The notes under the pieces are model-generated. The model ran no database searches, was not told the origin of the DNA, and worked only from the letters and a program-made list of their open reading frames with translations. From NCBI GenBank assembly GCA_028282785.1, contig JANQHE010000073.1:1-48092 (forward strand): a stretch of 48,092 nucleotides of DNA. Reading direction: 5' to 3'. The position numbers were made by a program, and so were the translations under genes. Within the stretch, counting starts at the first letter, position 1. Each line of letters begins with the position of its first letter. This document shows positions 2-45,068 of this stretch, in pieces. This stretch comes from Bacteroidales bacterium (GTDB lineage Bacteria; Bacteroidota; Bacteroidia; Bacteroidales; UBA12077).

Positions 2-3000
2 AGAGAAATCATTTTGTTTTTAAACGATGTTAAGGAAAAAGCTAATGATTTTAATATAAAGAACGTTGAAAAAAGAGAATACTATCCTGTCTCTTCAGCT
101 CAGAAGCGAATGTTTTTAATTCAACAAATTAATTCAGAGAGTACATCACAGAATATGCCTGCAACTTTTAATGTTTCGGGTAAATTAAAGACATCTGATA
201 TAGAAGATATTTTTAAAGATCTTATATCACATCACGAAAGCTTAAAAACAAGTTTTAGAATAATCAATAACGAAATTGTGCAACTAATTCATAATGAATT
301 AGAGTTTGAAGTCAAAGAAAAATATATAACATTTGATGAAGTAGAAAATATTAAAAAGGAAAACACAGAAACATTTAATTTATCAAAAGCACCACTTTTA
401 AGAGCTACCATATTTAGAATCGAAGATATGGACTCCATTCTTTTTATAGATATGCATCATATTATAAGCGATGGAGTAACAAATAATATCTTAATAAATG
501 ATTTTTTTAACCTTTTAAATAAAAATTCATTAAAACCTTTAAAAATTCAATATAAGGATTTCGCGAAATGGCAGAGTACTACGGAGTACCAACAACAAAT
601 AAAAAAGCAAGAAAATTATTGGTTAAAAAGGTTTGATGTAGCACCTGCAGAATTAATATTACCATATGACTTTTCATACAATCTTCAAGACTCTCAAGGC
701 GGAGCAAAAGTTTTCTTTAGTTTAGATCAAAATGAAACCGGAATTATTAAGAATATAATTCAAGAAAAGGAAATTACTCTATTTATGAGTATGTTATCCA
801 TTTTTAATATTTTACTTGCAAAACTGTCCGGTCAAAATGATATTGTAATCGGAACTCCGGTTATTACAAGGGATCATGTAGACTTTGAAACGGTTGTAGG
901 GAATTTTATTAACACGCTGGCTATAAGAAATAAAATACCGAATGAATTTTCATTAAATGAATTTATTGAACAAGTAAAAATAAACGTAATTAATGCTTTT
1001 GATAATAAGGAATACCAATTTGAACACCTGGTTGAGAAAGTTACAGATCATAGAGAAACAACTAGAAATCCCTTGTTTAATGTTATGCTGAATGTTCTTA
1101 ATCAAAAGGATTATGACATAGAAGTATCCGAAATTGTTAGTGAAGATAAATATATACACGAGCAAACTATTGCTCCATTTGACATTACATTTACTGTATT
1201 TGATTTGAACGAACAAATACTAATTAATATCGAATATAAAACTAATCTTTTTACCCCTAAGACAATAGAACGATATATTAGTTATTTTAAAAACATAGTA
1301 AATCAACTAATGGATTTGAATAAATTTATATCACAAATAGATCTGTTAGGAAAAAAAGAAAAGCATAAGATATTATATGAGTTTAATTGTTCTAAACAAA
1401 CCGAATATGAAAAGGAAGGTATATATCAGTTGTTTGAAAATGAATGCAAAAAGTATCCGGATCGTATTGCCCTGATATTAAATGACGAATATATTACATT
1501 TAAAAAATTACATTCTTTAGTGGCTAATTTATCTTATGTTATTAATAGTAAAACTAAAGTTAAAGAAGGTGTAATTGGAGTAAAGGTTGAAAGATCAGCC
1601 GAATTAGTAATATCAATGTTAGCAATTCTTAAATCTGGATTTGTTTATGTACCAATTGATCCAGAGCTTCCTAAAAAGAGAGTTTCATATATTATCAAAG
1701 ATACCGGAATGTCTCTTTTAATTGCTGATCAGTATCATTTTACTGATAATTTAGAGATAGAAAGTATCCATATAAATAAAGAACTTGCCGGGAAGTCAAG
1801 TAATTATAAAAATGTAGCACCATTAGTAAATAAATATGCTTACATTGTTTATACATCAGGTACCACAGGTAATCCCAAAGGAGTAATAGTTAAACAAAAT
1901 AGTATCATAAACCTAATATTAAGTCAAAGCAATGAGTTTAGTTTTTCAAAAGATGAACGCATTCTTCAGTTTTCTAATTCAAGCTTTGATGCTTCGATTG
2001 AGCAAATTTTATTACCCATTTTAAATGGCCTTAGTTTAGTATTAGTTGAAAAGGAAATTTTGTTTGATCCTATTAGGTTTAAAAAATATATTATAAAAAA
2101 CTCTATTTCTCATTTAGATACAGTACCTGCATATTTGAAAAGTGTCGATGTACATGGTTGTAAGGAGCTTAAACGCTTAATAGTAGGTGGAGAAGAATGT
2201 GATATTGCATTAGCTACACAATATTTTAATGAATATAAATTATATAATTTGTATGGACCTACGGAAACTACAATTACTTCAACTAAATTTTTATTAGAAC
2301 AGATTAAGAAAGATCAGACCAAAGTGCCAATTGGAAAGCCAATTGAAAATACGCAAATCTATATTTTAAAGAACGATCAGGTTGTGCCAATTGGAGTATA
2401 TGGAGAACTATGTATCACTGGTGATGGGATTTCAGATGGATATTTAAATGATCCGGAGTTAACTAATACAAAATTTGTAAATATACTTGATAATACGAAA
2501 ATAGCTTATAAAACCGGAGATATAGCCAGGTGGCTTCCGGACGGAAATATTGAATTTGCAGGTCGTATTGATGATCAGGTTAAAATTAGGGGGCAAAGAA
2601 TTGAGATTAAAGAGATAGAAGTAGCTATCAATAAATTTCAAAATGTAAAAAAATGTTTAGTAGTAAAAAGAGAAATTAACAATATAGAGCAATTAATTAC
2701 TTATGTTCAAAAGATTGGAAAAGAATTCATATTAAAGGGCAATAAGTATTATATAAGTACAGTTGAGCAATGCCCTCCTCTGGAAGATTCCATTGAACAA
2801 TTACACTCTTCGACATGGCCGATTTTTTTAAATAAAGATATATACTTAAAAAAATACTGGAAAAGATTATATAAAGAATATAGTTCATTTCAGTTTGGTA
2901 TTTTAAGCAGTAATGGAGAATTAGTTGCTGCAGGAAATACAATCCCGATTTACTGGGATAAAACAAAACACAATTTACCTTCCAGTTGGAGTAAGGCTTT

Positions 3001-6000
3001 GGAAATGGGATTGGAACCAAATAACAATGCGAATACTTTGTTGACTCTTGTTGGAGTTGTGAGTGAAAAGTACAGAAATGTAGGACTAAGTTATGAGATA
3101 ATTAAATGTATGCAAAATATTGCTAAAACTTGTAATTATGAAAGAGTTTTAATTCCTGTAAGACCAACTTTGAAATCTAAATTCCCTTTACTAGACCTGA
3201 AAAATTATTACAAAAAATTAAATGACAAAGGTGATGTATTTGATCCGTGGTTTAGGGTACATAAAAAAATGGGTGGAGAAGTTGTTGGATTTTGTGAAAG
3301 CTCGCAATATATTAAAGGAACTGTTGAAGATTGGGAAAAATGGACCGGAGAGACATTTTCATCTTCAGACATATATATAATCAAAGATGGACATACACCA
3401 TTAAAGATTAATATAGATAAAAATATCGGAGAGTATTATGATACTGCCGTATGGATTACACACAAAGCAGAAGGTACGTTTGATAGAACAAATTTAAATC
3501 ATATTAAGGAAGAACTAATGTTAAGTCTTCCCAAATACATGATTCCGGATTACTTTGTGGGAATTAATAATATACCAATAACGACAAGTGGTAAAATTGA
3601 TAGAAATCGTTTACCTGAACCAAAAATAATTGAAGAAAAGCAAAATGAAGCACTAAGTTATAAAGAAAGGTTACTTGCCAATATATGGGCTGAAGTTTTA
3701 GGTATATCTCAGAAAGAAATTAGCAGTAGAAAATCCTTCTTCGAACTTGGAGGTCATTCCTTGAGTGCTACAGTTTTAATAGCAAATATTCAAAAGAAAT
3801 TTGGTGTAAGTATCTCGCTTCGTGATATTTTTGAAAATCAAAAAATTAAGGATCAGGTGGAGTTGATAACCAGAGCTAAGAAAGAAGATTATTACTCCAT
3901 AAATAGAACAAATAAAAAAGAATTTTACACCTTGTCATCTGCCCAAAAAAGGTTATTTATCATTCATAATATGAATCCTGAAAGTATTACATACAATATG
4001 ACACAGGAGTTTAGAATGAATAGTGACTTTAAAATTGAGAGGATTGAATCAATATTTAAAAAAATTATTAAAAGACATGAAGTACTGCGCACTGGATTTG
4101 AATTATTGAATGAAGAACCTGTGCAAAAGATTTATGAAAATGTTGATTTTAATATTCAATATACTGATTGTAAATATCTTAACAGAGCAAATATTGATGA
4201 AATAAAGAAGGATTTTATAAAACCATTTAAGTTAAATTCACCACCGTTAATAAGAGGAGTTGTTGTAAAATCTGAAAATAACGAAAACCTGGTACTTTTA
4301 GATATGCATCATATAATTTGTGATGGAATATCACAAGAAATATTAGAGTCGGAGTTCATCAATTTATACTCTGGAATAGAGTTGCCCGAATTAAAATTGC
4401 AGTATAAAGATTACTCAGATTGGCAAAATAGCGATAAGCAAATTAAAAAGGCTAAATTGCAGGAGAGCTATTGGTTAAATGTTCTTTCAGGAGAACTTCC
4501 TGTTTTGCAATTACCAACAGATTATAAAAGACCTTTAGTACAAACATTTGATGGTGCTTCCGTTAAATTTCTTTTAGGTGAAGCAAATACCAATGATGTT
4601 AGAAAAATAGCTGTGCAACAGGATATGACATTGTATATGTTGTTACTAGCCGCACTAAAAATATTGTTATCCAGATTAAGTAATCAAAATGATATTATAG
4701 TAGGTACTCCCGTTGCCGGCAGAAGACATGTAGATTTAGAAAATATTGTAGGTAATTTTGTTAATACACTAGCGATAAGAAGTTATCCGGATAAAAATAA
4801 GACTATAAAAGAGTATTTATCAGAAATTAAATCATCTACTATATCAGCTTTTGTGAATCAGGATTACCAGTTCGAAAATTTAATTGAAGAACTTTCGGTA
4901 GAAAGAAATGCAGGAAGAAATCCTGTTTTTGATATCATGTTTGCTTGGACTATCGATGAATATGTTTCGGCAGAGTTTTTACCTAAGGCTGATCTAATGG
5001 ATCATGAAAAAGGTGAAATAAAATTTGACATGGTGTGGAATGCAATTGATAAAGGAAGTGATATTCTGGTAATATTGGAATATAATACAAATTTATTTGC
5101 ACCCCAAACAATTGAAAGAATTGTAAAATATTACAAACATATAATAGAGCAAATATGTACTAATCCGGATGGTTTAATTAGTGAAATAGATATCTTAGAT
5201 GAGGCTGATAAGAAAGAATTACTGAATAAGATTAATAATACAAATAGAAAATTCAGTGATGACAAAAGTCTAATAAATATATTTGAAGAAACAGTAATTA
5301 AGAGTCAGAATAGAATAGCCATTACCTTAAATGATCAGAATATAACATATAAGCAGCTAAATGATAGTGCGAATCGATTATCAAGATATTTGTATGAAAA
5401 AGGGATACGAGAAAATCATTTTGTAGGAGTAATGCAAGATAGATCGTTAAATCAGATCATAAGTATTTTAGGAGTTTTAAAGTCTGGAGCAGCATATTTA
5501 CCAATCGAACCAGAGTATCCAATCCAAAGAATTAGAAATGTGTTAAACGATACACAGACATCAATTTTATTAACTGACAATAAATCTTTAGAAGATAAAT
5601 CATTTGCTTTATTAAAAGGAGATAATTATGCTCCTGTGGAAATTTGTAAAAGTTCTGTAAGAAAGCAAATTGAAGATTTGGATAATCATCCGATTCCAAA
5701 TAGATCTTTAGTTGATTATGAAAAGTATAATCAACATATTGGACAAGCAATGGTTAAAAATAGTATAGTATTGCAATGTTCAAGAGGTTGTCCATACAAA
5801 TGTGCATATTGTCATAAAATATGGCCAAAAGGTCATATTACAAGATCAGCAGAGCATATTTTTAATGAATTAATACTTTATTATGAAATCGGGGTACGAA
5901 GATTTGTAATTGTTGATGATATATTCAATTTAGATATAAAGAATAGTAAAAGATTTTTCCAATTAATTGTCGATAACAATTTAAAGCTACAACTGTATTT

Positions 6001-8680
6001 TCCAAATGGGTTAAGAGGAGATATTCTAACCAAAGAATATATTGATTTAATGGTAGCAGCAGGTACAGTTAGTTTTGCACTTGCTCTAGAAACTACATCG
6101 AAAAGATTACAAAAACTTATTGGAAAAAATTTAAATGTTGAACGATTTAAAGAGAATGTAGAATATATTAGTTCAAAGTATCCTGAAGTTATTCTTGAAC
6201 TTTTTACTATGCATGGATTTCCTGGCGAAACAACAGCAGAAGCGTTAGACACTTTAAATTTTATTAAAAGTATTAAATGGTTACACTTTCCATATGTTCA
6301 CATATTAAAAATATACCCGAACACCGATATGGAAAAGATCGCATTAAAAAATGGGATATCTAAAGATGTAATCAATAGATCAATAAATTTAGCATATCAC
6401 GAATTACCTGAAACTTTGCCTTTTGAAGATGAATTTACACTAACATATCAAACAGAGTTTTTAAATAATTATTTCTTGCTAAAGGAACGTCTTCTTAAAG
6501 TTCTTCCATATCAAATGAGAGTTCTTACAGAAGATGAGTTATTACAAAAATACCGAAGTTACTTACCTGTAAAAATAGATACATTACAAGAGTTTCTGGA
6601 ATTTGTGAATATCAATATAGAAGAGCTGGAAGATTATAATTTTATAAATGAAGATTATTCTTATGTAAATAATTTAAATGAAAAAATAAAGAAAATCTTT
6701 GTGCCTGAAGAACCAGCTAATAATGATGCGCTTAAAATTTTACTCATTGATTTGTCCCAGTTTTATTCTAACGATAGCGATATATTATATGACGTTGTAG
6801 AGCCTCCTTTAGGATTAATGTATATTTCAACATACCTTAAAAACAAGCTAGGAAAACAAGTTGAATGCAAGATTATAAAATCTCGAGTTGATTTTGATAG
6901 TAATTTAGAATTAAAGCGAATAATTAAAGAGTTTGAACCTAATGTTATTGGTACTAGAACTTTAAGTTTTTATAAGGATTTCTTTCATAAAATGATTTCA
7001 TTGATTCGCTTATGGGGATATGAAGCTCCAATTATAGCAGGTGGTCCATATGCAACAAGTAATTATGATAATTTATTAAATGATACCAATATAGATATGG
7101 TATGTATGGGTGAGGGTGAAGTTACTTTTTATGAGATAGTAAAAGAGATCATAGCTAATAATGGGATATTACCTAACACTGAATCATTACTAAAAATAGA
7201 AGGTTTAGCCATAAAAACAGATGGTATTCCTAATGGTGTTACTCAAAGAGAAGTTATTGTAGTTGATGAGATTAATCTGGAAGATTATAATAATGAAAAG
7301 ATAAATATATCAAGTAGTACTGAAGATATAGTATATACCATATACACTTCAGGCAGTTCCGGTGTGCCAAAAGGAGTGTTGATAAATAATAGAAATGTTG
7401 TTAATTTAATACAAAGCCAAAAAGATGAATTCAAAATAAATAGTACTGAGAAAATTTGTCAGTTTTCATCAGTGTGTTTTGATGCTTCGGTTGAACAAAT
7501 ATGGTTGGCATTCTTTAGTGGTGCAAATCTTAATTTAGTTAGTAAAGAATCTATTTTGAATAAAGATGAATTTACCAGGTTCTTATTAAGAAAAAATATA
7601 ACTCATTTGCATGCTGTTCCTTCTTTCTTAGAAGGACTTAATGAATCAAAATATTACCTTAACAGAATTATTGCAGGTGGTGATGTATGTAGAGTTGGAT
7701 TAGCTGAGAAATTCAATAAGGAATATGATTTTTATAATGAATATGGCCCAACTGAAACAACAGTTACTTCAATTGAAATGTTGGTTAAAAAAATTAATAA
7801 AGATTATTCAAGCTTACCTATCGGAAGACCAATTGGCAACACAAGTATTTATATCTTAGATGAAAAACTTAATTTGGTTCCATTTGGCACTGTTGGTGAT
7901 TTATATATAGGAGGCGAAGGTGTTGGTATAGGTTACATAAATAAAGTTGAATTAACAAACGATAGCTTCATTGAAAATCCATTTGTAAAAAATGAAAAAT
8001 TGTATAAAACAGGCGATCGTGTTAGATTATTAAATGATACCAATATTGAGTTTCAAGGGCGAGAAGATAATCAAGTAAAAATTAGAGGTTTTAGAATTGA
8101 ATTAGGCGAGATTGAAAGTTGTATCCTAAAACACCAAGATGTTGAAAAAACTTTAGTTGTTGCAATTAACGATAGCTTTGGAGAAAAGATCCTAAGAGCA
8201 TTTTTGGTATTAAATAATGTAAAGCTAAAAGAAATATTACCTCAGATTAAAGTGTTATTATCACAAAGCTTGCCTCATTATATGATTCCATCAACATATA
8301 TGCAATTAGAAGAGATACCACTAAATCAGAATGGAAAAGTTGATAGAGAATTATTCGAAAATTCTGTTCATTATGAAAACAAAAATTATGTTAAACCTGA
8401 AGGTTTAATTGAAGAAACATTGGCAAAAGTTTGGGGAAATATTTTAAAAATTGATTCAGATAAAATAGGTGCGGAAGATAACTTTTTTGAGTTAGGAGGA
8501 CACTCATTAAAATTAAATATCTTGCTTTCAGAGATTTTTAAGAACTTTAATATTAGAATTCCTGCTAATGAGATCTTTATTCGTCCTACTATTAAAGACC
8601 AAGCAATCTATATAGAAATAAACAATCTAACAGATAGTGAATTGATTGAAGAAGAAGGGGCTGAAGAAATAAGAATTTAA
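2..8680 (+). CDS. NRPS, two modules, 5'-truncated: (docking)-C-A[GNAT]-T-C-A[rSAM-B12]-T
   Basis: Large cytosolic synthetase adding two residues. The reading frame is open to the window edge and the first ~20 residues align with the end of the TubC-like docking domains of neighbouring synthetases, so the start lies upstream; the TTG at 14 is not a believable start. Counting from base 2: C1 ~25-455 (HHIISDG, His152), A1 ~465-1205 interrupted after motif a8 by a GNAT-like domain (~905-1163), T1 (LGGHSL, Ser1253), C2 ~1300-1735 (HHIICDG), A2 ~1745-2790 interrupted between a2 (LKSGAAYLPIEP) and a3 (YTSGSSGVPKG) by a radical SAM plus cobalamin-binding insert, T2 (LGGHSL, Ser2835), then an acidic tail ending EEEGAEEIRI. 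Specificity residues read by eye: A1 DAEDIGLIT-K (acidic pocket, perhaps a basic amino acid), A2 DAEHIGEVT-K (no confident substrate). The tail likely docks on the TubC-like domain of the next protein. Confidence 0.96.
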   Translation, partial: REIILFLNDVKEKANDFNIKNVEKREYYPVSSAQKRMFLIQQINSESTSQNMPATFNVSGKLKTSDIEDIFKDLISHHESLKTSFRIINNEIVQLIHNELEFEVKEKYITFDEVENIKKENTETFNLSKAPLLRATIFRIEDMDSILFIDMHHIISDGVTNNILINDFFNLLNKNSLKPLKIQYKDFAKWQSTTEYQQQIKKQENYWLKRFDVAPAELILPYDFSYNLQDSQGGAKVFFSLDQNETGIIKNIIQEKEITLFMSMLSIFNILLAKLSGQNDIVIGTPVITRDHVDFETVVGNFINTLAIRNKIPNEFSLNEFIEQVKINVINAFDNKEYQFEHLVEKVTDHRETTRNPLFNVMLNVLNQKDYDIEVSEIVSEDKYIHEQTIAPFDITFTVFDLNEQILINIEYKTNLFTPKTIERYISYFKNIVNQLMDLNKFISQIDLLGKKEKHKILYEFNCSKQTEYEKEGIYQLFENECKKYPDRIALILNDEYITFKKLHSLVANLSYVINSKTKVKEGVIGVKVERSAELVISMLAILKSGFVYVPIDPELPKKRVSYIIKDTGMSLLIADQYHFTDNLEIESIHINKELAGKSSNYKNVAPLVNKYAYIVYTSGTTGNPKGVIVKQNSIINLILSQSNEFSFSKDERILQFSNSSFDASIEQILLPILNGLSLVLVEKEILFDPIRFKKYIIKNSISHLDTVPAYLKSVDVHGCKELKRLIVGGEECDIALATQYFNEYKLYNLYGPTETTITSTKFLLEQIKKDQTKVPIGKPIENTQIYILKNDQVVPIGVYGELCITGDGISDGYLNDPELTNTKFVNILDNTKIAYKTGDIARWLPDGNIEFAGRIDDQVKIRGQRIEIKEIEVAINKFQNVKKCLVVKREINNIEQLITYVQKIGKEFILKGNKYYISTVEQCPPLEDSIEQLHSSTWPIFLNKDIYLKKYWKRLYKEYSSFQFGILSSNGELVAAGNTIPIYWDKTKHNLPSSWSKALEMGLEPNNNANTLLTLVGVVSEKYRNVGLSYEIIKCMQNIAKTCNYERVLIPVRPTLKSKFPLLDLKNYYKKLNDKGDVFDPWFRVHKKMGGEVVGFCESSQYIKGTVEDWEKWTGETFSSSDIYIIKDGHTPLKINIDKNIGEYYDTAVWITHKAEGTFDRTNLNHIKEELMLSLPKYMIPDYFVGINNIPITTSGKIDRNRLPEPKIIEEKQNEALSYKERLLANIWAEVLGISQKEISSRKSFFELGGHSLSATVLIANIQKKFGVSISLRDIFENQKIKDQVELITRAKKEDYYSINRTNKKEFYTLSSAQKRLFIIHNMNPESITYNMTQEFRMNSDFKIERIESIFKKIIKRHEVLRTGFELLNEEPVQKIYENVDFNIQYTDCKYLNRANIDEIKKDFIKPFKLNSPPLIRGVVVKSENNENLVLLDMHHIICDGISQEILESEFINLYSGIELPELKLQYKDYSDWQNSDKQIKKAKLQESYWLNVLSGELPVLQLPTDYKRPLVQTFDGASVKFLLGEANTNDVRKIAVQQDMTLYMLLLAALKILLSRLSNQNDIIVGTPVAGRRHVDLENIVGNFVNTLAIRSYPDKNKTIKEYLSEIKSSTISAFVNQDYQFENLIEELSVERNAGRNPVFDIMFAWTIDEYVSAEFLPKADLMDHEKGEIKFDMVWNAIDKGSDILVILEYNTNLFAPQTIERIVKYYKHIIEQICTNPDGLISEIDILDEADKKELLNKINNTNRKFSDDKSLINIFEETVIKSQNRIAITLNDQNITYKQLNDSANRLSRYLYEKGIRENHFVGVMQDRSLNQIISILGVLKSGAAYLPIEPEYPIQRIRNVLNDTQTSILLTDNKSLEDKSFALLKGDNYAPVEICKSSVRKQIEDLDNHPIPNRSLVDYEKYNQHIGQAMVKNSIVLQCSRGCPYKCAYCHKIWPKGHITRSAEHIFNELILYYEIGVRRFVIVDDIFNLDIKNSKRFFQLIVDNNLKLQLYFPNGLRGDILTKEYIDLMVAAGTVSFALALETTSKRLQKLIGKNLNVERFKENVEYISSKYPEVILELFTMHGFPGETTAEALDTLNFIKSIKWLHFPYVHILKIYPNTDMEKIALKNGISKDVINRSINLAYHELPETLPFEDEFTLTYQTEFLNNYFLLKERLLKVLPYQMRVLTEDELLQKYRSYLPVKIDTLQEFLEFVNINIEELEDYNFINEDYSYVNNLNEKIKKIFVPEEPANNDALKILLIDLSQFYSNDSDILYDVVEPPLGLMYISTYLKNKLGKQVECKIIKSRVDFDSNLELKRIIKEFEPNVIGTRTLSFYKDFFHKMISLIRLWGYEAPIIAGGPYATSNYDNLLNDTNIDMVCMGEGEVTFYEIVKEIIANNGILPNTESLLKIEGLAIKTDGIPNGVTQREVIVVDEINLEDYNNEKINISSSTEDIVYTIYTSGSSGVPKGVLINNRNVVNLIQSQKDEFKINSTEKICQFSSVCFDASVEQIWLAFFSGANLNLVSKESILNKDEFTRFLLRKNITHLHAVPSFLEGLNESKYYLNRIIAGGDVCRVGLAEKFNKEYDFYNEYGPTETTVTSIEMLVKKINKDYSSLPIGRPIGNTSIYILDEKLNLVPFGTVGDLYIGGEGVGIGYINKVELTNDSFIENPFVKNEKLYKTGDRVRLLNDTNIEFQGREDNQVKIRGFRIELGEIESCILKHQDVEKTLVVAINDSFGEKILRAFLVLNNVKLKEILPQIKVLLSQSLPHYMIPSTYMQLEEIPLNQNGKVDRELFENSVHYENKNYVKPEGLIEETLAKVWGNILKIDSDKIGAEDNFFELGGHSLKLNILLSEIFKNFNIRIPANEIFIRPTIKDQAIYIEINNLTDSELIEEEGAEEIRI
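2710..3490 (+). other. GNAT-like acyltransferase domain embedded in A domain (a8-a9 site)
   Basis: About 260 residues sit between A-domain motif a8 (KIRGQRIEIKEIE, near 2580) and a9 (LPKYMIPDYF, near 3528). The core reads as a GCN5-related N-acetyltransferase: a strand ending TLVGVVSEKYRNVGLS followed by a helix, i.e. the acyl-CoA binding region, then VRPTLKSKFPL, FDPWFRVHKKMGGEV and GTVEDWEKWTG, segments I associate from memory with a free-standing actinobacterial GNAT family. Known insertions at this site are mostly N-methyltransferases; a GNAT is unusual. Inference: it acylates the residue tethered on the adjacent T domain, for example a side-chain amine, which would fit the acidic A1 pocket. 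GNAT-like loading domains in PKSs can instead act as decarboxylases or S-acyltransferases, so N-acylation is not certain. Confidence 0.72.
5620..7320 (+). other. Circularly permuted cobalamin-radical SAM enzyme embedded in A domain (a2-a3 site)
   Basis: The insert lies between A-domain motifs a2 (near 5480) and a3 (near 7341). It opens with an IEDLDNHPIPNRSLVDYEKY-like segment, which in ordinary B12-rSAM proteins is the linker after the cobalamin domain. The radical SAM core follows, with CPYKCAYC (CxxxCxxC) at 5789-5812 for the [4Fe-4S] cluster, GVRRFVIVDD, ALETTSKRLQKLIGK and MHGFPGETTAEAL. Only then comes a cobalamin-binding fold (~6730-7250): LKILLIDLSQF, EPPLGLMYISTYLK, IIAGGPYAT, MGEGEVTF, closing with IEGLAIKTDG, which normally directly precedes the linker seen at the start. 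The normal B12-then-rSAM order is therefore swapped. Known a2-a3 interruptions are linked to side-chain methylation; C-methylation of the tethered amino acid is inferred. Confidence 0.85.
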
Positions 8681-18334: not shown

Positions 18335-19303
18335 ATGGAACCAGCTTTTAGTAGAATAAGTCCTGTTAACATAAATGGTATAAATACCAATAGACTTATG
18401 GTAGTGTTGAAAACTACAGGATGTGAATATGCACGACAAAATCATGGTGGTTGTACTGTTTGTGGATTTATAAAGAATGCAGTTAACAACATATCCCAAG
18501 ATGATATTATAATGCAATTTGAAAGAACATTAAAAACGCATGATCTTAACGATGTTGGTGAAATTGATTTACTAACACTTGGATCTTTTTTGAATGATAG
18601 TGAAGTTAATCCCCGGACAAGAGTAACTTTGCTTAAAATGATTGCAGATATTCCTCATATAAAGAGAGTTTCTATTGAGTCGAGAGCTGAGTATGTTACC
18701 ATTGAAAAATTAGCTGAGTGTAAAAAAGTTCTAAAAAATAAAATATTAGATTTTGGAATTGGACTTGAAAGTGCTAACGATTATGTAAGAAATACAGTAA
18801 TAAATAAAAATTTATCAAAAGAGGACTTTGAGAAAACCGTTATGATGCTTAAAGAATCAGGTTGTACATTGTTGGTTTATCTTTTAATTAAACCACCAAC
18901 TCTAACAGAAAGTGAAGCTGTCGATGATGCGGTTCAAAGTGCAAAATATGTATTTTCAGTTGCTAAAAAGTATGAGATAAATGCGCGAGTAGCATTTGAG
19001 CCGGTTTTCATATCGGAAGATTCAAACCTTGAGAAATTATATTTACAATCCGAATATAGAATGCTAAATCTTTGGAGTGTTGTTGAGGTAATATTAAAAA
19101 CGCATCAGGAAGGTTGTATTTTTGTTGGTTTAAGCGATGAAAACCTTTCTAAAGATAGAATGCCTAATTCTTGTCCAAAATGTGATGAAAATATTCGCCG
19201 GGAAATCGAATTTTTTAATAAGACACAAGATGTATCAGGTTTAAAAGGATTATTCTGTGAGTGTAAAGATTTGATCGGTAAAAAGAAAGGAGCACTTGTA
19301 TGA
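18335..19303 (+). CDS. Radical SAM protein, COG1244/RaSEA-like (TIGR01210-type)
   Basis: 322 residues, cytosolic. The cluster cysteines are in TTGCEYARQNHGGCTVCGF (Cys codons at 18422, 18452, 18461), spacing Cx9CxxC rather than the usual CxxxCxxC, recalling the COG1244 proteins related to archaeosine synthase subunit RaSEA and Elp3-like rSAM enzymes. SIESRAEYV and DFGIGLESANDYVR match the middle of that fold, and a C-terminal Cys-rich segment (CPKCDENI ... FCECKDL) may bind metal. No cobalamin domain. The stop overlaps the next start in ATGA, so it is probably co-translated with the aminotransferase-fold gene, suggesting a joint job such as making an unusual amino acid for the synthetases. 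A tRNA-modifying role cannot be excluded but fits the context poorly. Reaction unknown. Confidence 0.88.
   Translation: MEPAFSRISPVNINGINTNRLMVVLKTTGCEYARQNHGGCTVCGFIKNAVNNISQDDIIMQFERTLKTHDLNDVGEIDLLTLGSFLNDSEVNPRTRVTLLKMIADIPHIKRVSIESRAEYVTIEKLAECKKVLKNKILDFGIGLESANDYVRNTVINKNLSKEDFEKTVMMLKESGCTLLVYLLIKPPTLTESEAVDDAVQSAKYVFSVAKKYEINARVAFEPVFISEDSNLEKLYLQSEYRMLNLWSVVEVILKTHQEGCIFVGLSDENLSKDRMPNSCPKCDENIRREIEFFNKTQDVSGLKGLFCECKDLIGKKKGALV
19288..19294 (+). promoter_or_regulatory. Shine-Dalgarno-like site before the aminotransferase-fold gene
   Basis: A purine-rich AAAGGAG lies about six bases ahead of the ATG at 19300, inside the end of the rSAM gene. Most genes in this window show no such motif, as is usual in Bacteroidota, so this site together with the ATGA overlap supports the chosen start and coupled translation. 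Confidence 0.5.
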
Positions 19304-20421: not shown

Positions 20422-20480
20422 CCATCATAGTAAGATAAGCAATTAAGAAGTATAATAATAGCTTTTAATTATTGATTAGC

Positions 20481-23400
20481 ATGAGTGTTTCTGATCTGGA
20501 TAAAAGAGTCTGGGCCTATCAGCAGTTCAGGGAAAGATCTTATTGGTTAAATAAACTTTCTGATATTGAATCTGTTAGTTGTATTCCTTTTGATAAAAGA
20601 GAAAATAGGGTAAATAGTGGGCATGTTTGCAAATATGATGCATATAATATTAAATTCAGTACAGAAATATCTGAGCCAATAAGAAAGTTAAGTAGAGGTA
20701 ACAAAGAAAGGCTTCATGTAATGTTAACATCTGGCATTTTTCTTCTACTTCAGGCATATACTGGTAATAAAGATACGGTTATTGGAATTCCTATAAAAAA
20801 TGAAAGTTATACCAAGAATGTGATAAATACGATATTACCAATATATATCGAGATTAGCAAAAGTCTTTCCGTACGATCTTTTTTATCAAATATTAGAAAT
20901 TCAATTATTGAAGCAACAAGTAACCAGAATTATCCTATTGATATACTGATAAAACAAATAGGTAAATTCAATAATAGAAATCAAGGCTCTTTATTTGATG
21001 TTGTTGTTATGTTAAATGATTTCCATCATTCAGAATCTATTGCAGATTTCAATTGTGGTTTAATATTTAATTTTAATAATGATGGTTTAAATATAGATTG
21101 TAATATCAATTATGATTCTTTTAGTTATTCGTTGGATTTAATAGAAAGAATTTCAAGAAACTTAGTACATATTTTTGAGCAGATTTTTTGTTATGATTTG
21201 AATAGATCATTAAAAGAAGTAACTAGTTTAAGTTTTGAAGAACAAAAGCTTATAATACAACAATTTAATGATACAATAACCGAGTTCCCGAAGGTTAAAC
21301 TAATTCCTCAACTTTTTGAAGAGCAGGTAGCGAGAACCCCTAATAGTGTAGCTGTAATATTAGAAGACAAAAAAATTACTTATAAAGAATTATTTGAGAA
21401 ATCTTCAAATGTTGTCTCTGACTTATGTAAAAAAGGTATCAAGCCCAATGATATTGTTTCGATTCTTTGCAATACATCTATTGAAATGATTATAGCAATA
21501 TTAGGTGTGTTACGTGCTGGATCAGCATATTTACCTATAGATATTTCAAATCCGGTTGAGAGAATCAATTTTATATTAAAAGATAGTAATTCAAAATACT
21601 TAATTACTGATAGGTTAACAATCAAGGAATTAGAATTACCATCGGAGAGGATAATTAATGTAAATAAGATTATAAAAACGGAATTACCAGCGGAAGGCAT
21701 TAATTGTAAAGGAAATAATGAATGGTTAACCTCCATTGCATATATCATGTACACTTCTGGAACTACAGGTGTACCTAAAGGAATTTTGATAGAACATAAA
21801 TCATTTTTAGAGTTTAATTTATGGGCAATAAAGGAATTTGGTCATAAAAAGAATTTTCAAGTATTATTATCTAACTCTTATGCTTCTGATGGTGCTATTC
21901 AGCAAATATTCCCTCCTTTAATTTCAGGGGGAACCTTACATCTTATTAAAAAAGAATTGAGGCTAGATATCAGTAGCTATGTTAATTATCTTAGAAATAA
22001 TCATATCAATAATATTGATGAGGTACCAGTTGTGATGAAAGAAATTTTTAATATAATTGAGTTAGATTCAAATAGAGAAATTTTGCCAGATCTTAGTCAC
22101 CTATCCTTAGGAAGCGAATATATACCCATCGAAATTGTTAAAAATAGCAGAAAATATCTAAATTGGAATGGTAAGATAATAAATGCTTACGGACCAGCCG
22201 AAGCTTCTGTTGAAGCTACCACATATCATTTCTCAGGAAAATCAGATAATGAGATTTCATTAATTGGAAAACCGCGAAGTAACACGAGGATTTTTATTAC
22301 AAATAAATATAATGAGCTGTGCCCAATAGGAGTCCCTGGAGAGATATGTATTGCAGGAGAAGGATTGGCCAGAGGATATTTAAACAAAGTAGAGTTAACT
22401 CATAGTAAGTTTATTGTAAATAAGCTTGCCGGTTCAATGAACGATTTGTTATATAAAACAGGAGATCAAGGATGCTGGTTGCCCGACGGAAATATTGAAT
22501 TCTTGGGTAGAATAGATCACCAGGTTAAAATTAGAGGATTTAGAGTAGAATTAGGCGAGATTGAAAAGATATTAAATAAAATTCAAGGGATCAGAGAATC
22601 GGTTGTTATAGATTTTGACGATAAAAAAGGTCAAAAATATATTGTTGTTTATTATATTTCTGATACCGATAGTGAAAATCTTAATATAAGGAATAAACTT
22701 TCAAAGTCACTTCCAGACTATATGATTCCTTCTTTTTTTGTTCAAATAGATACAATTCCTTTAAATGCTAACGGAAAAGTTAATAGAAAATTATTGCCTG
22801 AGCCGGAGTTAGATGCAGTAGGCTGTAAGTTGCCTGCAAATGATAATGAGGAGAAAATGGTTGAGGTATGGTCGGAGGTTTTAGGAATTCCAAAAGATAA
22901 AATTAGTACTGATGCGAATTTCTTTGAGTTAGGTGGCGATTCCATTAAAACAATTCAAATTGCATCAAGATTAAATAGGTATGGTTTAAAATTATCTGTA
23001 GCAGATATATTTAAATATCAAAAAATTGATCAAATAAGTAAGAAAATCCTAAAATGTGAAAGGGAGATAAGCCAAAGTCCGGTAACTGGAAAGATCCCTT
23101 TAATCCCTATACAGTCATGGTTGCTAAATACAGGCTTTATGGATTTACATCATTATAATCAGTCTGTGATGCTGTATAAAAAAGAGGGATTTGACCTACC
23201 AATAATTAATAACGTTTTTAAAGAGCTAGTAGAACATCATGATATCTTAAGAGCAATCTTTTATAAAAGAAATAATGAATATTTCCAATATAATAATGGA
23301 TTAGAGAATAAAAACTATTCGATTGAAACTTTTAATTTGAAAGGAGAAAATGAAGTTTCAAGTTTTATAGAAAAACAAACTAATATAATTCAGAGAAGTA

Positions 23401-25877
23401 TAAACCTGGAGAAAGGCCCACTGGTTAAATTAGGACATTTTATCACAAATGAAGGCGATCATCTTTTACTTGTAATACATCATTTAATAATTGACGGAAT
23501 TAGCTGGCGAATATTACTTGAGGATTTTTCCATAGCTTATAGTTCAATTCTTAAAGATGAAAAGCCTATTTTTCCTTTAAAAACAGATTCTTATAAATAT
23601 TGGTCAGAGAGATTAAATGATTATTCTAAAAGCTCTAAGCTATTAAAGGAGAAATTGTACTGGCAAAAAGTTGTTGCAAGAGAAATTCCTAACATTCCAA
23701 AAGATTTTAATGTAAAAGGTGATTGTAAAAACATTGGAAATCAAATCATTAAAACAGTAAGTTTTAATAAGTCACAGACCGGGCAGATTTTAAAAAAATC
23801 AAATAAGGCTTATAATACAGAAATAAACGATATTCTATTATCTGCACTTGTAAAGTCGGTGTGTAAATGGGGAAACCTTAGCAAAATTGCAGTAGAATTA
23901 GAAGGACACGGTAGAGAAGCAATATTTGATGATGTTGACATTAATCGAACCATAGGTTGGTTTACTACTCAATATCCCATTGTTTTAGAAAATTATGAAG
24001 ATGTTTCAGAACTTATAAAAGAAACTAAAGAAAATTTAAGACATATACCATTTAAAGGAATAGGATATGGGATCTTAAAATATAGCAACGATGAAAATAA
24101 CGAATTATTCAATTTAAAACCGGAAATATGCTTTAACTACCTGGGAGAATTTACAGGTAGTGGAATAAGTTCCTTTGAAGAAGAAGAATTATATAGTTTT
24201 TCAAAGTATTCTGCTGGTGATTCAATCAGCCATTTGATGGAATCTGTTTACGCAATTGAAGTAAATGGAATGGCAAGTGGAGGACAATTAAGTTTTACTT
24301 TTAGATATAACAAACATGAGTATAATGAAAATACAATAGAAAAACTAACAAATCAATTTAAGCAAAGCCTCATTGAAATAACTGAACACTGCAGGTTAAA
24401 GGAAAACAACGAATTAACACCTAGTGATTTTGGATTAAAAAACATAACTCTTAATGACTTTAATAGATTAGTTAGCGTTAATCGAAATAACATTCAGGAT
24501 ATTTATGAATTAAGTCCAATGCAATATGGGATGTTATTTCATTCACTAGTTGATAGACATTCGGGAGAATATTTTGAGCAATCTGAGATTATCATTGAAG
24601 GAGATATAGATTGTAAAATATTAGAAAAAAGCTTTAATGAAGTACTAAATAGATATGAAACTCTTAGAACAAAATTTGTTTATGAAGATATAGACAGGCC
24701 GCTTCAAATTGTTTTAACAAAACGTGAAGTAAAAATAAACTTTAAAGATATTAGAAACTTAGATAATGTTGAACAACAAAAAAGTATTGAAACATATAAA
24801 ACAGAAGAAAGACATAAAGGCTTTGATTTAAATTCGGATAACTTAACTAAATTGACATTATTTAAAACTGAAGATCAAAAGTTTACTTTTATTTGGAGCT
24901 TTCATCATATTTTAATGGATGGATGGTGTACAACAATTCTTTTTAGGGATTTATTAACATTTTATAGAAATGTAAAATATGGGGCTTCGTACAAAATGCC
25001 TCCAACTAATAAATTTAGAAATTATATTACCTGGTTACAATCTCAGGATAATGATAAGTCACTTGATTTTTGGAAAAAATACTTACAGAATTTTAACGGT
25101 GCTAATAGCTTGCCTAAGAAAATTAAAGAAGAACCAGAATTTAAAAAAGGAAAGTTAACTTTAAAACTTGAAGATTCTGTTAAGCAAAGATTAATTCAAT
25201 TTGCATCCCGAAATGCAGTAACTCCAAATGTTTTATTACAAACGGTTTGGGGATTAATATTACAACTGTATAATGATACTGATGATGTTATTTTTGGATC
25301 AGTTACATCGGGTCGACCCAGTGAAATCGAAAATGTCGAAGAAATGGTGGGGCTTTTTATAAATACTGTTCCAATAAGAATAAAGCGTAATGAAACAGAT
25401 ACTTTTAATACACTCTTAGATAGAATAAAAAATGAAACCTTAGAAATAAAAAAATATGAATACTCATCTCTGGCTGATATACAATCTTTTACAGATAAAG
25501 GAATTGAGTTAATTGACCATGTTTTCTTATTTCAAAATTTTGCAATAAATGATGGTTTTAAAGAACTTAATAAAAGTAGTACACATATAGATGTTGGTTT
25601 TAAAGTCCAAAAAGTACATAACGAGGAACAAACTAATTATAACTTCAATATTATTATATCTCCAAGAGAAGAATTTGAGATCATAACAGTGTATAATAAA
25701 AATTTATTTGATGATGAATTGATTTCTAATGTTTTAAATCATTTTAGAAATATCCTTGAATATGTAGTGGTTAATCCTAATGAATTATTGGATAATCAAA
25801 ATTCAATGTTGGAGATAGGTTTGACTCAAGCTGATTCTGATTCTTTTATAAATGAGTTAAGTGATTTTGCAATATAG
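20481..25877 (+). CDS. NRPS: half-C-A-T-E-C (D-residue module)
   Basis: 1798 residues from the ATG at 20481; a TTG at 20472 in the same frame is a weaker alternative. It begins with only the C-terminal half of a condensation domain (RERSYWLNKL... ~10-250), lacking any HHxxxDG. Then A ~270-770 (YTSGTTGVPKG near 21751), T with LGGDSI (Ser821, the DS form typical before epimerases), an epimerisation domain (HHLIIDG His1000; EGHGRE; RTIGWFTTQYP; NYLGEF) and a DCL-type condensation domain (LSPMQYGMLFHS; HHILMDGW, His1475). The module therefore supplies a D-amino acid. Its A4 region is atypical (SYASDGAIQQIF in place of FDxS); a tentative code DGQDSGAVE-K matches no substrate I know. The missing C half is probably compensated by the stand-alone C protein at 16755. 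Ends EIGLTQADSDSFINELSDF. Confidence 0.96.
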   Translation: MSVSDLDKRVWAYQQFRERSYWLNKLSDIESVSCIPFDKRENRVNSGHVCKYDAYNIKFSTEISEPIRKLSRGNKERLHVMLTSGIFLLLQAYTGNKDTVIGIPIKNESYTKNVINTILPIYIEISKSLSVRSFLSNIRNSIIEATSNQNYPIDILIKQIGKFNNRNQGSLFDVVVMLNDFHHSESIADFNCGLIFNFNNDGLNIDCNINYDSFSYSLDLIERISRNLVHIFEQIFCYDLNRSLKEVTSLSFEEQKLIIQQFNDTITEFPKVKLIPQLFEEQVARTPNSVAVILEDKKITYKELFEKSSNVVSDLCKKGIKPNDIVSILCNTSIEMIIAILGVLRAGSAYLPIDISNPVERINFILKDSNSKYLITDRLTIKELELPSERIINVNKIIKTELPAEGINCKGNNEWLTSIAYIMYTSGTTGVPKGILIEHKSFLEFNLWAIKEFGHKKNFQVLLSNSYASDGAIQQIFPPLISGGTLHLIKKELRLDISSYVNYLRNNHINNIDEVPVVMKEIFNIIELDSNREILPDLSHLSLGSEYIPIEIVKNSRKYLNWNGKIINAYGPAEASVEATTYHFSGKSDNEISLIGKPRSNTRIFITNKYNELCPIGVPGEICIAGEGLARGYLNKVELTHSKFIVNKLAGSMNDLLYKTGDQGCWLPDGNIEFLGRIDHQVKIRGFRVELGEIEKILNKIQGIRESVVIDFDDKKGQKYIVVYYISDTDSENLNIRNKLSKSLPDYMIPSFFVQIDTIPLNANGKVNRKLLPEPELDAVGCKLPANDNEEKMVEVWSEVLGIPKDKISTDANFFELGGDSIKTIQIASRLNRYGLKLSVADIFKYQKIDQISKKILKCEREISQSPVTGKIPLIPIQSWLLNTGFMDLHHYNQSVMLYKKEGFDLPIINNVFKELVEHHDILRAIFYKRNNEYFQYNNGLENKNYSIETFNLKGENEVSSFIEKQTNIIQRSINLEKGPLVKLGHFITNEGDHLLLVIHHLIIDGISWRILLEDFSIAYSSILKDEKPIFPLKTDSYKYWSERLNDYSKSSKLLKEKLYWQKVVAREIPNIPKDFNVKGDCKNIGNQIIKTVSFNKSQTGQILKKSNKAYNTEINDILLSALVKSVCKWGNLSKIAVELEGHGREAIFDDVDINRTIGWFTTQYPIVLENYEDVSELIKETKENLRHIPFKGIGYGILKYSNDENNELFNLKPEICFNYLGEFTGSGISSFEEEELYSFSKYSAGDSISHLMESVYAIEVNGMASGGQLSFTFRYNKHEYNENTIEKLTNQFKQSLIEITEHCRLKENNELTPSDFGLKNITLNDFNRLVSVNRNNIQDIYELSPMQYGMLFHSLVDRHSGEYFEQSEIIIEGDIDCKILEKSFNEVLNRYETLRTKFVYEDIDRPLQIVLTKREVKINFKDIRNLDNVEQQKSIETYKTEERHKGFDLNSDNLTKLTLFKTEDQKFTFIWSFHHILMDGWCTTILFRDLLTFYRNVKYGASYKMPPTNKFRNYITWLQSQDNDKSLDFWKKYLQNFNGANSLPKKIKEEPEFKKGKLTLKLEDSVKQRLIQFASRNAVTPNVLLQTVWGLILQLYNDTDDVIFGSVTSGRPSEIENVEEMVGLFINTVPIRIKRNETDTFNTLLDRIKNETLEIKKYEYSSLADIQSFTDKGIELIDHVFLFQNFAINDGFKELNKSSTHIDVGFKVQKVHNEEQTNYNFNIIISPREEFEIITVYNKNLFDDELISNVLNHFRNILEYVVVNPNELLDNQNSMLEIGLTQADSDSFINELSDFAI

Positions 25878-27588: not shown

Positions 27589-27612
27589 AATATAATAAAT
27601 ACATAATAGATT

Positions 27613-31285: not shown

Positions 31286-32947
31286 ATGAAAAAGAAAATT
31301 GATTGTTTGATTGTTGGACATAATCAAATAAAATATGATGAATTTATAGATCTCATTGAACGTATTGGTAAAGATACTTCTACATATAGAGATTTAAACA
31401 TGAATTTTTTAACTCGTAAATCAAGAAAATATAATGCAACTGATATATATAATGATTTTTGCGTAAAATCTAATCAAAGTTTAGAACATATAAATTATAT
31501 CGAAACATTTAGTACAACTATTTCTTATTTAGTGACTTATTTAAATAAAAGAGGTTTTACTTACGAGTATATCCATTCTTTTCAAGAAGAAAAAGATAAC
31601 CTGATTGAATTACTACAAACGTGTGAGATTAATGCTATCGCAATTTCAACAACTTTATATGTTATATCAACACCTCTATTCGAAGTTCTTGACGTTGTGA
31701 AAAAGTATAATAAAGGATCTAAAATTATAATCGGAGGTCATTTTATTGCGACTCAAATGAGAATTTCATCTATTGAAGAGCAAAAGAATTTGTTTAACAA
31801 ATTAGATGCAGATTATTATGTAAATAGTTCGCAAGGAGAGAAGGCGTTAGTTGATCTTCTATCATTGATTAAAAATACAGACAAAGATATTGGAAGTATT
31901 GATAATGTTATTTACAAATCTAATGGTGAGTATATTTTTAATAAAACAAGTGAAGAAAATAATAAACTACAAGATAATTTGGTGAATTGGGATTTAGTTT
32001 CTAATAACGCAGGTAATTTTATTAATATTAGAACAAGTATTTCTTGTCCGTTTAAATGTTCGTTTTGTGGCTTTCCTGAACATGCTGGCAAATATCAGGC
32101 AATTAAAACCTATGATATTGAGAAAGAACTAAACACATTAAAAAATATTAATAGTTTGAAGAATGTATTTTTCCTGGATGATACCTTTAATGTACCACCT
32201 AAACGTTTTAAAGAGATCTTAAATATGATGATTAAACGAAAAGATAAGTTTAAATGGCATTCATTTATAAGATCACAATATGTTGATAAAGAGATAGCTG
32301 TAATGATGAAGGAAAGCGGTTGCGAAAGTGTTTTTTTAGGAATTGAATCCGGAAGTGATGCAATTTTAAAAAACATGAATAAACAGGTTAGTGCTAAGCA
32401 ATATTTAAAGGGAATAGAAATACTTTCTGATGCAGGTATCCAAACTTATGGTAGTTTTATTATAGGTTTTCCAGGAGAGACCGAAAAAACATTTCAGGAA
32501 ACATATGATTTTATAAAAAGTAGTGCGCTCGATTTCTACAGAGCTCAATTATGGTACTATGAGTTTATAACCCCAATATGGAGAGAAAGAGAAAAATATA
32601 ATATACAAGGAAAGGGATTTGAATGGTCTCATTCAACTCTCAGTTCAGAAAAAGCTTGTGATATGATTGAGAAACTAATAGTCGAAATAAACAATCCAAT
32701 TAGGGTTCCACAGTATTATTTTGATTATGAATTCTTGGTTCAATTGCAATATAAGGGTATGACTAAACAGCAATTAAAAACATTTCTAATTGCATTTAAT
32801 GAGGGTGTAAGAGAGAAAATATTAAATAAAAACATATCTGAAACAAGCGATGAAATTATCGAAATGATAAGTAAGCTAGAACTTATAGATAAAAAAAATC
32901 AGAGCGAAGTTAACTGGGAACTTGGGATTCCGGAGCTTGATCTTTAA
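31286..32947 (+). CDS. B12-binding radical SAM enzyme resembling PhpK family methyltransferases
   Basis: 553 residues. The N-terminus (DCLIVGHNQIKYDEF ... TSTYRDLNMNFL) looks like the PhpK family of cobalamin-dependent radical SAM P-methyltransferases, many members of which sit in NRPS or PKS clusters and probably methylate carbon. Cobalamin-binding part ~60-210 (IAISTTLYVIS, KIIIGGHFIAT), rSAM core with SISCPFKCSFCGF (motif 32045-32068), FLGIESGSDAILKNMNK and SFIIGFPGETEKTF, followed by a C-terminal domain. It lies between two synthetases expected to dock directly to each other, so a role on a tethered intermediate or finished peptide is likely. No phosphinate biosynthesis genes are visible, which argues against true P-methylation here. 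Confidence 0.92.
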   Translation: MKKKIDCLIVGHNQIKYDEFIDLIERIGKDTSTYRDLNMNFLTRKSRKYNATDIYNDFCVKSNQSLEHINYIETFSTTISYLVTYLNKRGFTYEYIHSFQEEKDNLIELLQTCEINAIAISTTLYVISTPLFEVLDVVKKYNKGSKIIIGGHFIATQMRISSIEEQKNLFNKLDADYYVNSSQGEKALVDLLSLIKNTDKDIGSIDNVIYKSNGEYIFNKTSEENNKLQDNLVNWDLVSNNAGNFINIRTSISCPFKCSFCGFPEHAGKYQAIKTYDIEKELNTLKNINSLKNVFFLDDTFNVPPKRFKEILNMMIKRKDKFKWHSFIRSQYVDKEIAVMMKESGCESVFLGIESGSDAILKNMNKQVSAKQYLKGIEILSDAGIQTYGSFIIGFPGETEKTFQETYDFIKSSALDFYRAQLWYYEFITPIWREREKYNIQGKGFEWSHSTLSSEKACDMIEKLIVEINNPIRVPQYYFDYEFLVQLQYKGMTKQQLKTFLIAFNEGVREKILNKNISETSDEIIEMISKLELIDKKNQSEVNWELGIPELDL

Positions 32948-44900: not shown

Positions 44901-45068
44901 AATGAGATTCTTCCAGAAATGAAGGCTAATGGAAAGATTGTGATAGCAATAACTCATGACGATAATTACTTTAATGTAGCAGATAGAATTATTAAAATGG
45001 ATGGTGGAAAGATTGTGGATGAATACAGTCATGAAATCTCTGATAAAGTACAAATTGAATTAAACTAA
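41994..45068 (+). CDS. Periplasmic serine peptidase (beta-lactamase fold) fused to cyclic-peptide-type ABC exporter
   Basis: 1024 residues. An N-terminal signal sequence (LIIKSLLIILFVNQIYA) leads into a class C beta-lactamase/ClbP-like hydrolase: STSK (Ser86, Lys89), YSN (Tyr180) and HSG. Three membrane helices follow (~378-490), as in ClbP, then six more and an ABC ATPase: Walker A GGNGSGKTT (~840), signature LSNGQ (~930), Walker B IYLFDEW (~950), switch His in ITHDD. The exporter part looks like the SyrD/PvdE cyclic peptide transporter family. The order peptidase-3TM-ABC exporter is that described for ZmaM-type prodrug-activating proteins, which remove an N-acyl-D-Asn leader during export. 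Inference: the peptide leaves the cell as an inactive precursor. The leader-forming module would have to be upstream of this window. Confidence 0.93.
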   Translation: MKTLIIKSLLIILFVNQIYARKVQGYNEKIPENVDSICNKIYNKADIPGLSLILVTGNEIAIKNWGYTDLKSEAKVTSKTLFELGSTSKAFTALAILNLEKQDLINLNDNISKYLPWFNAYYEKSKTDITINQLLRHTSGIPWKAMTHIPQGDKDNLLDSTIRIINNIELNNIPGSKYEYSNINYDILGLIIEKLTKLSFEKYVEDSLFMQLGLKYTSVGKPINDSLSDGFKISFFNPRKYNAPRFKGNNPAGYVISNAEDIAKWLRLQLALDSCIFENLIEKSHQPDFTVNPRGLISYGYGWEVEPYGDKKVFHSGLNPNFSSYIGLIPNKSIGIAILANSNSSYTAYLGDILLSQLNNEDIKEISEPDYSIDKVFSLITFIVAVFIIGIISLLIWMLNGVFRKQRKFATFSFRYLLRILGSAILTLPFIYGIYLLPEALMGLTWETTLVWAPNSYYWACLLFLMAVFGIWGLNVISIMIPTKNQYYRSLPMISILSIMSGLANMIIILLLINAIGNETKTIYILYYFGLALIFYIASRKIVQTKLIKISQLIVYDLRMTLIRKVFLSTFQKFEKIDNGRVYATLNQDTATISNSVNILIGLISNLITIVGVFIYLGSISLVATGFILGIILLVAAIYFFVSSKTNILFEQARDTANKFSGLIDGLLYGFKELSLSGLKKKEYTDEVEVSCSELKNKTGLALIKFVNAFLVGEALLIMVLGTIGFIIPFLFPKIPNYKLLTFIMIVLYLIGPINGVLNSIPNIVQIKISWNRIKGFINEIKPDLNIKEIFTLRKEKVNVDKLLVKDLVFEYQNNSEDRNFKIGPINLNIEKGEIVFIIGGNGSGKTTLANLLTGLYTFDQGSIEINGVKTKSNDLGNYYSTIFSNNHIFKKLYGIDVSSKKKEIEYLLKTFRLDEKVGIDNDSFTTIELSNGQRKRLSLMKTFLEDSQIYLFDEWAADQDPEYKRIFYNEILPEMKANGKIVIAITHDDNYFNVADRIIKMDGGKIVDEYSHEISDKVQIELN

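Follow-up and report, generated by a model that had tools for sequence, protein, structure and literature searches.

A nonribosomal peptide synthetase (NRPS) gene at the edge of a bacterial contig contains an adenylation (A) domain that is interrupted, between its core motifs a2 and a3, by a radical SAM (rSAM) core followed by a cobalamin (Cbl, B12)-binding domain. This layout raises the question of where such an insert comes from, whether it is functional and what it could do to the amino acid that its host activates.

Architecture of the interrupted adenylation domain

The window, i.e. the whole stretch of 48,092 nucleotides that was analysed, is contig 29 (1-48092) of a genome comprising 5.5 Mb on 81 contigs. 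Since it begins at the contig start, the NRPS frame (2-8680) is open at its 5' end. The encoded domains are arranged as C-A(extra domain after a8)-T-C-A[rSAM-B12]-T. Pfam splits AMP-binding in the 2892-aa frame over three stretches. It places Radical_SAM at aa 1926-2088, with 64.1 bits against a cut-off of 29.5 (E 2.3e-17), and B12-binding (PF02310) at aa 2267-2379, with 39 bits against a cut-off of 32.1 (E 8.4e-10); the order within the insert is hence radical SAM, then B12. A preliminary description had assigned the two halves to these families from the letters alone, and profile searches place each of them over the respective cut-off. The features are as follows.

2..8680, + strand: NRPS gene, 2892 aa in a single uninterrupted frame, 5' end cut by the contig edge
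3917..5224, + strand: condensation domain of the insert-bearing module (Pfam Condensation, aa 1306-1741)
5282..5620, + strand: first section of the host A domain, covering a1-a2 (matches 1-106 of the 428-position A profile, at aa 1761)
5483, + strand: a2-type motif SGAAYLPI (motif search)
5636..7225, + strand: circularly permuted B12-radical SAM insert, best-supported limits
5777..6265, + strand: radical SAM core (Pfam Radical_SAM, aa 1926-2088)
5789-5812, + strand: Cys motif CPYKCAYC (motif search)
6266..6577, + strand: segment equivalent to the C-terminal region of the canonical enzymes, as far as residue 486 of 500 (hhalign)
6578..6733, + strand: new linker bridging the former C and N termini (gap between the two hhalign alignments)
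6734..7225, + strand: cobalamin-binding domain (canonical 4-146) with the first half of the linker between the canonical domains (Pfam B12-binding, hhalign)
7196, + strand: IEGLAIKTDG (motif search)
7244..8338, + strand: remainder of the host A domain (A profile and motifs)
8411..8620, + strand: thiolation (carrier) domain with FFELGGHS (Pfam PP-binding)
31286..32947, + strand: B12-rSAM protein in canonical order, bcpD/PhpK type (584 bits, slightly below the cut-off of 600)

Downstream of the insert, the host retains a3 (YTSGSSG, 7343), a5 (NEYGPTE), a8 (QVKIRGF, 8072) and a10 (NGKVDRE). An auxiliary domain thus lies between two preserved core motifs, on the a2 side at 5483 and a3 at 7343, as in other interrupted A domains, and the earlier reading of a2, a CPYKCAYC core, a B12 fold and a3 in one frame agrees with the motif positions (5483, 5789, 7343) and the order of the Pfam matches. 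The limits proposed at that time, 5620..7320, do enclose the insert, but only about 5636-7225 has a clear canonical counterpart and the edges are host linker. The specificity residues of the host A domain read DAEHIGEVT, a code without an assigned amino acid. Insert and host A domain have the same G+C content (28.4 vs 29.1%). In the first A domain of the gene, about 240 extra residues follow a8 (window 2690-3475); they have no Pfam match at E 0.05, and their look is presumably GNAT-like.

The B12-rSAM protein at 31286..32947 belongs to the same cluster, 22 kb from the insert gene. At three further loci (L029, L033 and L036), rSAM genes of similar size with a CPFxCxFC motif lie directly behind the insert-bearing gene. 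Other genes of the window include a small radical SAM protein inside the NRPS cluster (18335-19303), which scores over the RaSEA cut-off (TIGR01210, archaeosine biosynthesis; 229.9 vs 212.15 bits), and a beta-lactamase-family domain joined to an ABC transporter in one frame (41994-45068). A clear ribosome-binding site was absent at most of the 13 starts inspected. This feature, the resemblance of the ribosomal proteins L5 and S14 and the second-best PDB match of L5, 7jil (presumably from Flavobacterium johnsoniae), would point to Bacteroidota. G+C content is 28-30% on the three NRPS contigs and 31.5-36.2% at six loci that lie on other contigs. The window genome (G000) is rated 100% complete, yet searches for 16S rRNA and rpoB found neither.

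Relationship to canonical B12-radical SAM enzymes

Free-standing Cbl-rSAM methylases have the B12 domain first. For comparison with this canonical order, seven B12-first, stand-alone relatives from the order of the window genome were aligned into a profile of 500 residues. They represent a subfamily of uncharacterised function with members at L032 (a tandem pair), L061, L062, L063, L064 and L066. Positions 16-329 of the insert profile correspond to canonical residues 160-486 of 500 (hhalign, E 1.4e-48), while the B12 half (1-144) corresponds to canonical residues 4-146 (E 1.4e-29, probability 99.8%). With these E-values, chance matches can be dismissed. Nearly the whole canonical enzyme is therefore present, cut in the linker between its B12 and rSAM domains: both ends of the insert map to about residues 147-160 of the canonical relatives, and the old termini are fused inside the insert through about 50 new residues. 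The profile alignment hence places the split linker, with IEGLAIKTDG closing the insert, where the preliminary description had put it.

Rotation of the insert raised its local scores from 378-413 to 509-579 against all seven canonical relatives, whereas the scores against six unrelated ORFs, used as a control, did not change. For each of seven inserts tested, both halves gave far higher scores with the seven subfamily members than with three further B12-rSAM proteins encoded in the window. Identity between the window copy and the canonical subfamily amounts to 37-41% in the rSAM half and 27-34% in the B12 half. Together with the consecutive alignments to 160-486 and 4-146, the rotation scores bear out the circular permutation postulated earlier, which brings the two ends of the insert together. 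Judged by its sequence, the insert is a circularly permuted canonical B12-rSAM enzyme in the order rSAM-B12; members of the canonical subfamily are B12-first and stand alone, whereas the insert matches them end to end but permuted and inside an A domain. In a comparison that addressed an origin by tandem fusion, neither member of the L032 pair was consistently nearer to the inserts in either half. The nearest canonical relatives are two neighbouring genes in two of five genomes (G051 and G569), at L032 (10052-13063) and at L061 and L066; the L032 pair lies near MBOAT, AlgX-like and FkbH-type genes.

The insert did not exceed the cut-off of any NCBIfam family among the best 25 of 29 matches, the highest score being 99 bits for the PhpK type against a cut-off of 600. 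The B12-rSAM families compared include PhpK, BchE, KedN5, HpnR and TIGR04014. Among solved rSAM structures, the best profile match is 6fd2 (apramycin oxidoreductase 4), which we take to be AprD4; NCBIfam describes the AprD4 family as diol-dehydratase. TokK was matched in the PDB at E 2e-4 with the whole insert profile and only at E 0.035 with the B12 half alone.

With the class 1 Cbl-rSAM enzymes (OxsB, TsrM and TokK type), the insert shares an rSAM core with CxxxCxxC (Pfam, 64.1 bits) and a B12-binding domain of the common type (PF02310 over cut-off and hhalign). In that class the B12 domain is N-terminal to the core, an order that the permutation has reversed in the insert. A cobalamin domain after the rSAM core is the arrangement of the class 2 enzymes, Mmp10 and the DUF512 proteins (PMC13331322, PMC11659888), and a review names Mmp10 as the sole characterised Cbl-rSAM enzyme of this kind (PMC13331322). 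The cobalamin domain of Mmp10 is described as four-stranded, and the Mmp10/DUF512 type as lacking significant sequence similarity to the canonical domain (PMC13331322, PMC11659888). The insert, unlike these enzymes, contains a member of the ordinary B12-binding family, relocated by permutation: Pfam returned PF02310 and no DUF512-named family at E 0.001. Because Pfam reportedly does not group Mmp10 with DUF512 (PMC11659888), the positive evidence against a domain of the Mmp10 type is the PF02310 match together with the hhalign result, and an Mmp10-like cobalamin domain was rejected, as the insert matches the ordinary Pfam family.

Distribution, decaying hosts and host specificity

The preliminary description had proposed a survey for further rSAM inserts between a2 and a3, and such inserts were found both in the window genome and in Candidatus Aminicenantes. 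The window genome carries two more copies in separate NRPS genes on contigs 52 and 35, with 57% and 49% identity. A scan of genome contigs yielded four loci, all from Candidatus Aminicenantes and one with two copies. In the family of the richest Candidatus Aminicenantes genome, at least 7 of 34 genomes carry the insert, with at least 67 matches at E 1e-100 or better (at least 33, 16, 8, 3, 3, 3 and 1 per genome); eight of the 67 were judged partial and one has an in-frame TAA. When all candidates in the two richest genomes were scored, 34 and 20 matches were obtained at E 1e-30. The insert occurs in at least 7 of 142 genomes of the Aminicenantes class and in at least 1 of 396 genomes in a sample of that phylum. 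For the order of the window genome, a full-length match was found in at least 1 of 393 sampled genomes, namely the window genome itself, and for its phylum in at least 1 of 395. These counts are lower bounds, with at most 3 (order and both phylum samples), 9 (class) or 40 (family) candidates scored per genome. A plasmid search matched 19 records, none of which had one place covering 80% of the insert. An assembly join at the insert edges, named earlier as a finding that would undo the interpretation, is contradicted, because two more NRPS genes of the window genome and the at least 67 matches from the Aminicenantes family show the same layout.

In a tree of the inserts, the window copy groups with L006 (97/97) and L039 with two copies from the Aminicenantes family (100/100). 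The three copies of the window genome thus fall in two places, which suggests at least two acquisitions.

Not all hosts are intact. Five loci (L048, L068, L043, L080 and L051) have two A domains in succession and then the carrier; the second A domain lacks a3 and most of its core but retains the insert. At L081, the insert follows an A domain and no remnant of a host A domain of its own was found. The copies at L096 and L089 have a like layout in the domain map, giving eight such copies. The preceding A domain is complete in view at L081, L085 (which contains L048), L096 and L089, while the loci L068, L043, L080 and L051 begin inside it. Among the five eroded hosts, pairwise identity is 60.1% for the insert compared to 25.5% and 26.4% for the A-domain remnants before and after it. 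The insert is therefore retained on its own account and does not require a working host A domain.

Conservation was analysed in 40 distinct inserts with flanking DNA. The Cys triad is kept in 39 of them, the exception being L050 with Tyr at the first Cys, and 97 alignment columns are the same in at least 38 of the 40. Specificity residues of the hosts were read against GrsA. Eight inserts were cut too short downstream for codes (five were labelled from partial codes, three left unlabelled), and the codes of six hosts without a3 are meaningless and were set aside. The hosts have many codes, several of them unnamed; the others we take to stand for Leu, Ile, Val, Thr, Asn-like, Gln, Tyr-like and Pro-like residues.

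The common codes are scattered over the insert tree, changing as often as in shuffled labels (Thr, 5 changes in 5 rows; Ile, 4 in 4; Asn-like, 3 in 3; Gln, 3 in 3; Leu, 2 in 2). For the 22 rows with all parts, the labels require 10 changes on the A core, which is the minimum, and 16 on the insert. In 14 rows with standard codes, A cores that share a code are 59.0% identical and those with different codes 39.7%, a difference reached in 0 of 2000 permutations, whereas the corresponding values for the insert are 57.7% and 57.2% (p 0.25). The uncoupling applies to the common codes only, because insert and A-core distances do correlate over all 22 rows (Mantel r 0.56; 0 of 2000 permutations as high) and all labels taken jointly need 23 changes on the insert tree against a shuffled mean of 30.9 (bootstrap not fully settled); these signals are driven by the rare codes DPxY and DVMN and the hosts without a3, which cluster on the tree. 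For the common residues, these comparisons lead us to conclude that insert and side chain are not matched to each other; swapping of a3-a8 cores under a resident insert may be the reason. A side-chain-specific methylase tied to one amino acid was rejected as an explanation, as the insert does not track the common host codes.

Other A domains of these genomes are also interrupted. In the window, an A domain with a PRMT5-like methyltransferase stretch in its a8-a9 region lies behind half a condensation domain (27613-31182). NRPS proteins that start with the C-terminal lobe of a condensation domain only, without HHxxxDG, are encoded at 20469-25874 and 27610-31179 of the window and at many Aminicenantes loci (L083-L102). 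A ThiF-family domain (PF00899, E 1.7e-54) lies between a2 and a3 of another Aminicenantes A domain (L101, 9766-10878, - strand), and in the same genome an ordinary SAM methyltransferase domain occupies the a2-a3 site (L096, 16287-17189, + strand). At L088 (3148-5115, - strand), a B12-rSAM stretch in canonical order precedes a1 of an A domain, in frame and close to the start of that domain; Pfam matches B12-binding there at E 2.9e-16 but Radical_SAM only at E 0.0094. By sequence reading, one A domain at L034 apparently has both the permuted insert at a2-a3 and a PRMT-like methyltransferase after a8 (704-2431 and about 3270-4600).

Candidate reactions of the insert

The rSAM-B12 order, the permutation, the retained Cys motif, the recurrence, the retention in decayed hosts and the independence of common codes are properties of the sequences themselves, and the insert probably serves as a transferable unit that modifies amino acids while the peptide is being assembled. 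We cautiously favour the view that it represents a self-contained, permuted in-line Cbl-rSAM tailoring domain that tolerates different side chains and is most likely a C-methylase, a view that seems to us somewhat likelier to hold than to fail. The predicted domain would bind a [4Fe-4S] cluster, SAM and cobalamin and would work in line on the amino acid, or the chain, tethered to the carrier of its own module; inserted methylation domains are said to act on carrier-bound and not on free substrate (PMC11355689). The permutation would suit an insert that must start and stop at one surface point.

As the preliminary description had pointed out, methyltransferases between a2 and a3 have a precedent, described for TioN (thiocoraline) and MarQ (maremycin) (PMC11355689). 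Both are S-methylases, TioN acting on Cys, whereas the insert is a permuted two-domain B12-rSAM unit whose hosts have many specificities. The analogy can be retained for the position, but a side-chain methyltransferase is too narrow a reading, because host codes are many, the common ones are not tracked and the insert persists beside decayed hosts. Titles and opening abstract lines of the literature on radical SAM with NRPS or adenylation, interrupted A domains, permuted radical SAM and Aminicenantes, with few subscription journals and preprints among them, contain no described example, in agreement with the earlier statement that no characterised one was known.

Most likely, the insert would transfer a methyl group by radical chemistry to an sp3 carbon common to the host residues, with C-beta as the simplest choice, as in PoyC-type enzymes. 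C-methylation is preferred because it is reported to be the commonest reaction of the Cbl-rSAM class (PMC11659888), because PoyC takes more than one residue type, methylating C-beta of Ile and Val, with PoyB taking Val and Met (PMC11285071), and because the free-standing Cbl-rSAM enzyme DscE methylates Val of a nonribosomal peptide (discodermins; PMC12858407). PoyB and PoyC, from RiPP pathways, and DscE combine B12 and rSAM like the insert, but are separate proteins whose substrates are finished peptides or precursors. Homology does not in itself imply methylation, because the insert belongs to no NCBIfam family and its nearest canonical relatives are without known function. The fuller proposition, of a portable NRPS domain in which a permuted Cbl-rSAM enzyme would C-methylate almost any carrier-bound residue at C-beta, and which is used in dozens of Aminicenantes modules, was passed to another phylum and can outlive its first host A domain, is more tentative and in our estimate falls somewhat short of probable.

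B12-rSAM enzymes also catalyse ring contractions and other non-methylating reactions. The insert could accordingly be a working in-line B12-rSAM domain that forms a ring or a cross-link, dehydrates, desaturates or introduces another radical change, which we regard as unlikely but worth serious consideration. It would fit the observation that no methylase family model exceeds its cut-off in NCBIfam, that 6fd2, the top solved rSAM relative, is not a methylase and that BchE is among the matches. A single change suiting Leu, Ile, Val, Thr, Asn-like, Gln, Tyr-like and Pro-like residues would, however, be easier to envisage as a methyl transfer than as the formation of a ring.

Action at the alpha carbon, by alpha-methylation or epimerisation, appears improbable. 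It would use the one position that the host residues share exactly, which fits an insert that does not track common side chains, and TIGR04014, the glutamine C-methyltransferase of methyl-coenzyme M reductase according to NCBIfam and presumably an enzyme acting on the alpha carbon, matches the insert weakly (39.2 bits, cut-off 360). The domains behind the inserts speak against it. Among 30 distinct insert modules mapped (L092 and L093 being one copy), 22 continue in frame beyond the carrier into a further domain, which in four of these 22 (L033, L086, L094 and L097) is an epimerisation domain, with best structure matches of the GrsA/TycA/TycB/BacC type. Only L094 and L097 keep HHxxxDG whole; L086 has HHLVIDA, and the L033 domain may be inactive, since its second His is lost. 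L087 was rejected as a fifth case, as it is a condensation domain with TycC PCP-C (2jgp) as best match. Epimerisation requires an alpha hydrogen, and alpha-methylation is therefore excluded wherever these domains work; alpha-carbon chemistry was rejected as the general reaction on this basis.

It is very improbable that two unrelated domains entered the A domain separately, without circular permutation. The order of rSAM before cobalamin does exist in Mmp10 and DUF512 enzymes (PMC13331322), but here a single canonical subfamily accounts for both halves over its full length, its C-terminal part and the split linker included, and Pfam sees an ordinary B12-binding domain. A dead insertion or an assembly error, to which the contig edge at the start of the window, the loss of the first Cys in L050 and the in-frame TAA could point, is hardly credible given at least 67 matches in at least seven Aminicenantes-family genomes and three in the window genome, the strong conservation of residues and the retention of the insert while its host decays.

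The insert is a clear natural example of a circular permutation that accommodates one enzyme in a loop of another, and it can be compared directly with its canonical relatives. The intact hosts, the decayed hosts and the placement after a host form a natural series on what such a domain needs from its host. If the preferred reading of an in-line Cbl-rSAM tailoring domain is true, radical C-H chemistry would be governed by the assembly line, module by module, and a class of in-line tailoring domains would be added to the prediction and engineering of NRPSs.
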